Shown here piece by piece: positions 31,636-35,963 of a stretch of 36,115 nt of DNA (positions within the stretch are counted from its first letter, which is position 1; each line of letters opens with the position of its first letter). The notes under the pieces are model-generated. The model saw only the letters and a list, made by a program, of their open reading frames with translations, did not search any database and was not told where the DNA came from. Source of the DNA: an archaeon (GTDB lineage Archaea; Thermoplasmatota; Thermoplasmata; JAJSAE01); contig JAJSAE010000086.1 of NCBI GenBank assembly GCA_024281315.1, positions 1 to 36,115 of the forward strand, in the 5' to 3' direction. The translations under genes were made by a program, and so were the position numbers.

Positions 31636-31860
31636 TTATTTCCTCTTTAAAACCACAGTGAGGCCCCGGACTTCCACGAGTTCCGCGCCGGTCCTTTCGG
31701 CCAGTTCTGCGGCCACTTCCTTCCTCCCTCCGGAGGAGCGGAGCATCTTTATTTTTACAACCCTCTTTGTCCGTATCTGCTCCCTGAGTTCTTCTATAAG
31801 GGAGTCGGTTATCCCGTTCTTTCCGACATGCAATGTTACCGGAATATCGCCCGTGTTCAT
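31636..31860 (-). CDS. YhbY-like (CRM domain) RNA-binding protein
   Basis: A 74-residue protein made of one CRS1/YhbY domain: HVGKNGITDSLIEELREQI, then VVKIKMLRSSGGRKEVAAEL and a final strand VRGLTVVLKRK. The GxxG-type loop (GKNG) is in place. Archaeal members are predicted ribosome or RNA-processing factors. It overlaps the RNase P subunit gene by 4 bases, an association that supports a shared role in stable RNA maturation. Confidence 0.88.
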   Translation of the reverse strand: MNTGDIPVTLHVGKNGITDSLIEELREQIRTKRVVKIKMLRSSGGRKEVAAELAERTGAELVEVRGLTVVLKRK

Positions 31861-32249
31861 TCTTTCACCTCTTTTTCTCCTGTTTCATCGTTCCTGTTAC
31901 TCTCTTCTCCCCGGCCCTTTTCCAGCGTTCCATTTGCGCTGGAACCATACGGGAAGCGGTATATTCGGCCGCAATTTCCGCAGGTTACGGAGATTTTTCC
32001 CATGTTTAGCCGATATGTTGAGTTCCGTCCAGGCACCAGAAAGGCCCCGCATTTCCTGCAAAAATGACGCCTATAAATGCCAAGGCTAAGATTGTACCTC
32101 ATAGCTGTCTTTCTGGCCAAATAAACATACCTGTCCGCCCGGTCCTGCCGTGAGTTCATGGCTTCTTTTTCCGCAAGCTCGAACAGGCTGGCAATCTGGC
32201 GTCTGGCCATTCGTCTTTCAAGGCTCTTTTTTCTTCTGCGCTTCGACAC
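31857..32249 (-). CDS. rnp4: Ribonuclease P protein component 4 (Rpp21/RNP4)
   Basis: A 130-residue homologue of the Rpp21/Rpr2 subunit of RNase P, which helps remove 5' leaders from tRNA precursors. The basic N-terminus (KRRRKKSLERRMARRQIASL) forms helices, with ARKTAMRYNL in the second helix. The zinc ribbon has CRKCGAFLVPG near 65 and VTCGNCGR near 88. A charged 30-residue tail after about residue 100 is extra. The start is GTG at 32249, with a TATA-like box about 25 bases before it, so it may be leaderless. It is divergent from a tRNA-Leu gene. Confidence 0.9.
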   Translation of the reverse strand: MSKRRRKKSLERRMARRQIASLFELAEKEAMNSRQDRADRYVYLARKTAMRYNLSLGIYRRHFCRKCGAFLVPGRNSTYRLNMGKISVTCGNCGRIYRFPYGSSANGTLEKGRGEESNRNDETGEKEVKE

Positions 32250-32390: not shown

Positions 32391-32400
32391 ACTATAAATA
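32391..32400 (+). promoter_or_regulatory. TATA box of the tRNA-Leu gene
   Basis: ACTATAAATA lies about 30 bases before the first base of the mature tRNA, the normal archaeal distance. Confidence 0.65.
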
Positions 32401-32424: not shown

Positions 32425-32550
32425 GCGGGGGTACCCGAGCGGCCAAATGCCAGGTAGTAAACTACCACACATCTGCTCCTGGCAGACCAGAGGGGCAGGG
32501 CTTAGGACCCTGTGGTTAGTCCTTCGAGCGTTCGAATCGCTCCCCCCGCA
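32425..32550 (+). tRNA. tRNA-Leu (anticodon UAG) with an intron in the D-loop
   Basis: Acceptor stem GCGGGGG (32425-32431) pairs with CCCCCGC (32543-32549), with A550 as discriminator and an encoded CCA at 32551-32553. The D-stem CCC (32434-32436) pairs with GGG (32492-32494). The anticodon stem is CAGGG/CCCTG around the loop CTTAGGA, with TAG at 32503-32505. A long variable arm (32513-32525) and T-arm GAGCG-TTCGAAT-CGCTC complete a class II leucine tRNA. Between D-loop bases GGCCAAA and the D-stem GGG lie 44 extra bases that cannot be in the mature form (see intron). It is next to the RNase P protein gene. Confidence 0.93.
32447..32490 (+). other. Non-canonical tRNA intron (44 nt) in the D-loop
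   Basis: Removing 44 bases restores a standard D-loop. The intron folds on itself: TGCCAGG (32448-32454) pairs perfectly with CCTGGCA (32478-32484), and TAG/CTA close a TAAA loop inside. A bulge-helix-bulge can be drawn with GGCC (32441-32444) against GACC (32485-32488, one mismatch), bulges AAA (32445-32447) and AGA (32489-32491). Cuts after the second base of each bulge give this intron; a one-base shift gives the same tRNA. Archaeal splicing endonuclease cuts such motifs. The usual site is after the anticodon (37/38), so this position is unusual. Confidence 0.85.
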
Positions 32551-32572
32551 CCATAACGGTCACGATTCCCAA

Positions 32573-34982: not shown

Positions 34983-35009
34983 TTTTCTCTAGTATTAGCC
35001 TTGAGAAGC

Positions 35010-35963
35010 ATGGTAGTAAGAGCAGAAATATACATATCCGGCAGAGTCCAGAAGGCGGGTTATCGTGACTTTATAGATGAAGTTGCTTATTCCCTTAGAA
35101 TCAACGGATATGTGAAAAATCTCGAAGATGGGCGCGTGGAGCTTATCTGTGAGGGCGAGAAAGAGGCGATAGAAGCCCTCATCAAATCAATAAATATCGA
35201 AGAGTACCCCATTCGTGTAGAGGACATCTCCGTAACATATGGTACCCCCACTGGAGAGTTTAAGAGTTTTGACATAATCAGAGAAGAGGATATTACCCTC
35301 GCCACTTATGAAAGAATGGATCTGGCCGCCAGATATATGCGGCAGATGAACAATAACCTAGGCGAGAAAATTGATACAGTTGGGAATAAGATAGATATCC
35401 TCTCCGAAAAAACTGATACGGGCTTTTCCGAACTTGGAGAAAAAATAGATACCGGTTTCTCAGAACTCGGCAATAAGATTGATAAGGTCGGCCAGAAAGT
35501 TGATGTAGTCGGCAATAAGATAGATGTCCTTTCCGAGAAGACGGATAAAGGCTTCTCAGAACTCGGAGAGAAGATTGATAAGGTCGCCGAAAAGGTTGAT
35601 ACTGTTGGCAACAAGATAGACACCCTTTCCGAGAAAACAGATAAGGGCTTTTCCGAACTCGGTGAAAAAATAGACAACAATTCCACAGAATCAATTATAA
35701 GGCTTGATACCATCGGCTATAACACCGGGGAATTGAACGAAAAAATCGATAATATGTCACTGGAACTCCCGGTTGTGGCCGAGAAGGTGGACAGGTTCAG
35801 AGAAGATACCATCGGGGCCTTTGGTGAACTGGACCGGAAATACCATGTGATTTCTCAGAATCTCGAGAGGTTGAACAGCAACATAGAGAAGATGGTGGAC
35901 GACCTCGGAATTTTGATCCGGGAATTCGTGGAAGAAAAAAGAAGAAACGAGGGATTGAAATAA
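35010..35963 (+). CDS. Acylphosphatase-domain protein with long coiled coil
   Basis: A 317-residue protein. I use the ATG at 35010, because the TTG at 35001 lies at the predicted transcript start. Residues 1-92 are an acylphosphatase domain: GRVQKAGYRDF carries the catalytic Arg19 and GYVKNLEDG the catalytic Asn37, although the usual GVGF is changed to KAGY. From about 115 to 228 there is a regular repeat of heptads and 11-residue units (GNKID, LSEKTD, GFSELGEKID), then further coiled coil to residue 315. Free acylphosphatases are about 90 residues, so the fusion is unusual. The coiled coil suggests an oligomer or a rod; the function is unknown. Confidence 0.75.
   Translation: MVVRAEIYISGRVQKAGYRDFIDEVAYSLRINGYVKNLEDGRVELICEGEKEAIEALIKSINIEEYPIRVEDISVTYGTPTGEFKSFDIIREEDITLATYERMDLAARYMRQMNNNLGEKIDTVGNKIDILSEKTDTGFSELGEKIDTGFSELGNKIDKVGQKVDVVGNKIDVLSEKTDKGFSELGEKIDKVAEKVDTVGNKIDTLSEKTDKGFSELGEKIDNNSTESIIRLDTIGYNTGELNEKIDNMSLELPVVAEKVDRFREDTIGAFGELDRKYHVISQNLERLNSNIEKMVDDLGILIREFVEEKRRNEGLK
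35361..35685 (+). repeat. Tandem coiled-coil coding repeat (about 96 bases per unit)
   Basis: The protein unit is 32 residues built as 7+7+11+7, for example VGNKIDxLSEKTDxGFSELGEKIDKVxxKVD split in two lines of similarity. It occurs about three times, and the first copy carries an extra 11-residue block. The DNA is also similar between copies (ataagatagat, ccgagaa, ggcttttccgaactcgg), so the array likely grew by recent duplication. Confidence 0.75.

Follow-up and report, generated by a model that had tools for sequence, protein, structure and literature searches.

Non-canonical introns of archaeal tRNAs have been described in bulk from the Thermoproteales and Thaumarchaeota and, recently, from Asgard archaea (PMC8450103, PMC11291895). 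The α4 and α2 splicing endonucleases of Euryarchaeota are described as acting on canonical motifs only and are found in lineages that have introns at 37/38 only, while Korarchaeum, whose enzyme carries a loop, is the only α2 archaeon with non-canonical introns (PMC4033280, PMC4090602). The α'2 enzyme of A. fulgidus is also reported to be limited to canonical motifs (PMC12397907, PMC4033280).

Here we describe an interrupted tRNA-Leu(UAG) gene in a 36,115-nucleotide stretch of DNA from an archaeon of the class Thermoplasmata (the whole stretch is called the window below). From sequence comparison, we put a probability of about 0.9 on the reading that this is a functional gene with a 44-nt archaeal intron at 21/22, folded into a relaxed motif and most likely cut by an EndA of the α'2 type before ligation of the exons. 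The closest likeness is to the Thermoproteales and other Thermoproteota, in which D-loop and T-loop introns (at 20/21, 22/23, 25/26, 59/60 etc.) have relaxed or strict motifs with 3-nt bulges and sometimes occur several to a gene; the thermoproteotal endonucleases, however, are (αβ)2 enzymes with a CSL loop, whereas a single-gene α'2-type enzyme without the loop is encoded here. Non-canonical positions and relaxed motifs outside the Thermoproteota are also shared with ARMAN-2 (Micrarchaeum, ε2 endonuclease), but the EndA of ARMAN-2 has three units and an ASL loop, and the present enzyme is built of two units and lacks an insertion at the ASL site. With Euryarchaeota that have α4 or α'2 EndA the genome has in common the enzyme type and the presence of 37/38 introns; the position and the relaxed motif set the Leu(UAG) intron apart from their canonical 37/38 introns. 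Methanopyrus kandleri and Methanothermobacter likewise have tRNAs with more than one intron, and the M. kandleri EndA also lacks loops, but it is a heterotetramer of constrained specificity rather than a fused homodimer type.

The coordinates of the gene and of its predicted motif are collected in Table 1. All stems of tRNA-Leu(UAG) are present, including an acceptor stem of 7 bp, a D-stem of 3 bp (CCC/GGG), the anticodon arm CAGGG CUUAGGA CCCUG and the T arm GAGCG UUCGAAU CGCUC. The first-pass annotation, made from the window alone, had proposed a 44-base insertion separating the D-loop from the D-stem's 3' strand, and comparison with intronless orthologues, many of which were found when 60 genomes of the same class were searched, confirms this. 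In the alignment with one of them (G036:C16:321-403), query positions 19-23 and 63-67 fall on the same five bases, and this overlap of the two query halves fixes the insert length at 44 nt. The sequence of this orthologue, CCCGAGCGGCCAAAGGGGCAGGGCTTAGGACCCTG, is the exact spliced form of the window's tRNA over that stretch, and once the intron is taken out the window's gene is the same in layout as the intronless orthologues. The TATA-box-like element TATAAATA is consistent with a candidate archaeal promoter for a tRNA with a short leader. Divergent from the tRNA gene and adjoining it is a gene (31857-32249, minus strand) for an RNase P Rpr2/Rpp21-like subunit (PF04032); further downstream (35001-35963, plus strand), an acylphosphatase domain (PF00708) is fused to a long coiled-coil-like tail of GFSELGEKIDKV repeats.

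Table 1. Features of the interrupted tRNA-Leu(UAG) gene in the window, with its predicted splicing motif, and loci of three-intron tRNA-Lys(UUU) genes in relatives
Feature	Position or locus	Strand	Basis or remark
TATA-box-like TATAAATA	32393..32400	+	~29 bases upstream of the tRNA start; sequence
tRNA-Leu(UAG) gene	32425-32550	+	interrupted; anticodon UAG
5' exon, GCGGGGGTACCCGAGCGGCCAA, positions 1-21	32425..32446	+	agrees with intronless orthologues
Central helix, 5' strand GGCC (exon G18 G19 C20 C20a)	32441..32444	+	pairs with 32485-32488, one C.A mismatch
5' bulge AAA	32445..32447	+	predicted cut after 32446; same AAA in both homologues
Intron, 44 nt, between positions 21 and 22	32447..32490	+	intronless orthologues; homologous introns in L123 (G108) and L115/L122 (G101)
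Inner helix, 5' strand TGCCAGG	32448..32454	+	sequence and shuffle test
Inner helix, 3' strand CCTGGCA	32478..32484	+	sequence and shuffle test
Central helix, 3' strand GACC, within intron	32485..32488	+	sequence
3' bulge AGA	32489..32491	+	predicted cut after 32490; AGA in G108, AAA in G101
3' exon, positions 22-73, long variable arm	32491..32550	+	82-91% identity to many orthologues
Encoded CCA, directly 3' of the tRNA	32551..32553	+	sequence
Three-intron tRNA-Lys(UUU) genes	L165, L166, L167, L171, L173, L175, L176, L179, L183, L186, L187		relatives

ARAGORN detects no tRNA in the window, and a search of the whole genome with Rfam RF00005 at E values up to 10 does not list the interrupted gene; both miss it because of the D-loop insert. 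Since the two tools miss essential tRNAs in genomes of this class, tRNAs reported as 'missing' there deserve re-examination. In the present genome, Ile(GAU) was not found among the expected tRNA set.

The insert had been described as forming a perfect stem of its own, with AAA and AGA bulges around a near-perfect 4-base helix, and these elements are all present. The inner helix (UGCCAGG/CCUGGCA) has 7 bp and no mismatch, and of the four positions of the central helix (GGCC/GACC) three form standard pairs, the remaining C.A mismatch recurring in the homologous introns of G101 and G108 discussed below. On the exon side only the pair C32440-G32492 adjoins the 3' bulge and is followed by mismatches, while the D-stem CCC/GGG of the precursor makes a detached outer helix, lying 4 nt farther out on the 5' side. 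The intron therefore lacks the strict hBHBh' arrangement, in which an outer exonic helix stands next to the 3' bulge, and for want of a proper outer helix at that place it is classed as relaxed; its motif is of the HBh'/bulge-helix-loop subtype, which is seen also in known non-canonical introns. When the insert is shuffled with the exon and the insert length held constant, helices in register with 7 or more inner and 3 or more central pairs are obtained at a frequency of 1.5e-5 for mononucleotide and 5e-5 for dinucleotide shuffles. The unconstrained minimum-energy fold predicted for the precursor is without the motif, at -55.5 versus -45.1 kcal/mol for the target structure, and counts against the motif, though the calculation omits protein binding and modification.

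The type of splicing endonuclease encoded in the genome, which the first-pass annotation had named as a useful check, can be assigned from a single detected endA gene (G000:C45) that encodes a protein of 350 aa. As one polypeptide contains two N-terminal and two C-terminal endonuclease domains (tRNA_int_endo, PF02778 and PF01974, two stretches each), the enzyme is by domain content of the α'2 type. Alignment by eye places the complete catalytic Tyr/His/Lys only in the second, C-terminal half, Tyr and His being absent from the first. The best solved relative is 5x89, which we take to be the M. kandleri enzyme. A CSL or ASL loop (10-18 residues after F-[FY]-G in the catalytic half) is absent from this EndA and from its alignable relatives, the ASL site of ARMAN-2 being placed by published analogy with the CSL. 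At the CSL site the protein has the length of wild-type A. fulgidus EndA, and the engineered, loop-bearing A. fulgidus enzyme (3p1y) exceeds this by 10 residues. An FFGK motif lies at the point where broad-specificity enzymes have the CSL/ASL insertion; its lysine, conserved in most of the class's EndA proteins, could take the role of the loop lysine.

We infer the following course of processing. The tRNA would be transcribed from the nearby TATA element, and its arm would fold into the 3-bp D-stem, the central helix between the 3' end of the intron and G18-G19-C20-C20a, and the 7-bp intron hairpin. The homodimeric α'2 EndA, without CSL or ASL, is the most likely nuclease, with a cut behind the second base of each bulge; the exons would be joined by an archaeal tRNA ligase, expected to be RtcB. 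The first-pass annotation also held that the intron disrupts the D-arm until it is removed. For the D-loop this stands; the D-stem need not be affected, as its 3 bp can form in the precursor and serve as the outer helix, so that splicing need not precede D-stem formation. Splicing should, by inference, come before docking of the D-loop with the T-loop, because the central helix ties up G18 and G19.

An alternative for the enzyme is that a loop-less α'2 EndA is unable to act on the relaxed motif, and that another or additional nuclease, or an unrecognised EndA partner, removes the intron. We regard this as unlikely, although the publications cited above restrict loop-less enzymes to canonical motifs and the genome is incomplete. 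Only one endA gene was found, and relatives in the class likewise have a single two-domain EndA ORF. Homodimeric enzymes have moreover been reported to cut bulge-helix-loop-like motifs (PMC8707768), and A. fulgidus EndA excises a bulge-helix-loop intron, at 37/38, from full-length pre-tRNA (PMC6379350). Excision by the α'2 EndA remains the preferred reading.

An intron homologous to that of the window is present at the same site of tRNA-Leu(UAG) in two members of another family (G101 and G108). The three introns have AAATGCCAG and GACCA beside AGGGG in common and differ in their interiors. Relative to the window, two pairs of the inner helix become G-U in G108 and still pair, and one pair is lost. 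The window and G108 introns are identical at 39 of 44 bases (89%), but their EndA proteins are only about 49% identical. Common flanking DNA was looked for as the cause of this likeness and not found: nothing outside the tRNA-Leu(UAG) gene itself matches when the two regions are compared, the flanks being unrelated. The likeness may reflect either transfer of the tRNA gene between lineages or a hidden or strong constraint on the intron sequence.

The G108 homologue (L123) came from a family search. A scan for D-loop insertions in tRNA-Leu(UAG), covering one genome per species for 84,980 species, gave 16 matches, two of which proved on inspection to be real D-loop insertions; most of the 16 were rejected as intronless tRNAs lying behind a chance CCGAG. 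One of the two (L115), in the Methanomassiliicoccales archaeon CSMAG_2432, is clearly homologous and lies at the same site as in the window; its stretch is identical to that of G101, which belongs to the window's class. The other (L110) is in a Thermofilum MAG (Thermoproteota), and interrupts the D-loop of the same tRNA as in the window. A D-loop insert of tRNA-Leu(UAG) in G025 (L119) was rejected as a homologue, having a similar place but another sequence and a poor central helix; the sister genome G014 is without it, which points to a recent gain or loss. A narrow-pattern search of 400 genomes used a pattern able to match G025 only.

The homologues also bear on the possibility that tRNA-Leu(UAG) is a decayed, interrupted pseudogene and that CUA is decoded by another tRNA. 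The first-pass annotation had raised the question of another intact tRNA-Leu(UAG); no second gene was found in the genome, which is 91.45% complete in 107 contigs, by RF00005, R1 or DNA search. An intact copy could sit in a gap, and partial copies of other tRNAs do occur in the genome. The exon positions, however, are all intact, CCA included, the TATA-like element stands at the expected distance, and two other genomes retain the intron with its helices at that very site; we consider decay very improbable. The genome also has genes for the other leucine tRNAs (CAA, UAA, CAG and GAG), none of them with an intron.

Other tRNA genes of the same genome are interrupted as well. Ordinary 37/38 introns are found in the Glu, Pro, Tyr and Trp tRNAs and in a CAU tRNA. 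The only tRNA-Lys(UUU) gene detected (L073, G000:C21, minus strand) is interrupted in its D-loop, at 20/21, by an intron of 32 nt, whose bulges are GTA/AAA and whose CTAG/CTAG central helix is fully paired; taking the intron out joins CTAGGT to AGAGC, which gives a D-loop equal to that of the intronless tRNA-Lys(CUU). The tRNA-Arg(CCG) gene (L224, G000:C9:8101 onward) is interrupted twice, at 37/38 and, by 29 nt, in the T-loop at 59/60; the T-loop intron forms a strict motif on the T-stem, with seven inner pairs, AAA/ACT bulges and a TTCG/CGAA central helix. That the Leu(UAG) insertion persists after maturation, giving the tRNA an enlarged D-arm, is scarcely credible, for although it folds into a stem on its own, retention would break the contact between the D-loop and the T-loop, with G18 and G19 sitting in the central helix, the bulge-helix-bulge features lie exactly at the borders of the insert, and inserts of the same kind occur in this genome at Lys 20/21 (there with pairs that covary across the class) and Arg 59/60.

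Across the class, the Lys(UUU) D-loop intron is found with a strict pattern in 91 of 400 genomes, representing 37 of 105 genera, and the reversed control pattern has no match. Its bulges are GTN and AWA in all 48 representative sequences; 42 of these have CTAG/CTAG as the central helix and the other 6 have CCAG/CTGG, a compensatory change. The inner-helix sequences are very diverse, and they pair in 217 of 240 cells compared with 167 ± 5 (maximum 185) for shuffled partners (5000 shuffles; 48 sequences), a figure that is not to be read as a probability because the 48 rows are related. At least 11 relatives from several families have three introns in tRNA-Lys(UUU), in the D-loop, the anticodon loop and the T-loop. 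In family f12, tRNA-Leu(UAG) has an intron in the T-loop and not the D-loop, short in two genes (L126, L054) and about 100-165 nt in two others (L127, L125); the long introns could hold another RNA.

The first-pass annotation had remarked that non-canonical intron sites are less well known in euryarchaeal-type genomes, which fits the reviews but understates the present case, since D-loop and T-loop introns are widespread in this class. A literature search, which some key papers lay outside so that absence is not proven, returned no description of non-canonical introns in the class. The Leu(UAG) intron is a further case of a known kind, and its interest is that of a class-wide exception to the rule of enzyme-intron co-evolution. 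We lean towards the view that the Thermoplasmata as a whole keep D-loop and T-loop introns, up to three per gene, and that a loop-less α'2 endonuclease removes them, relaxed ones included. If so, neither a CSL nor an ASL loop would be required for broad substrate use, and the published rule would need revising. The window locus and its relatives make up a large, testable set of exceptions to reviews that tie non-canonical introns to loop-bearing endonucleases.

Fragments of tRNA genes also occur in the genome. A T-arm with a 3' acceptor strand and CACC (L225, G000:C35, near 13955) has no recognisable 5' half nearby and may be a pseudogene, an integration scar or part of a split gene. Partial ends of tRNA-Ser (L102, G000:C76:4060), tRNA-Lys (L101, G000:C22:2136) and tRNA-Arg (L223, G000:C59) lie near intact genes and resemble what integrating elements can leave.
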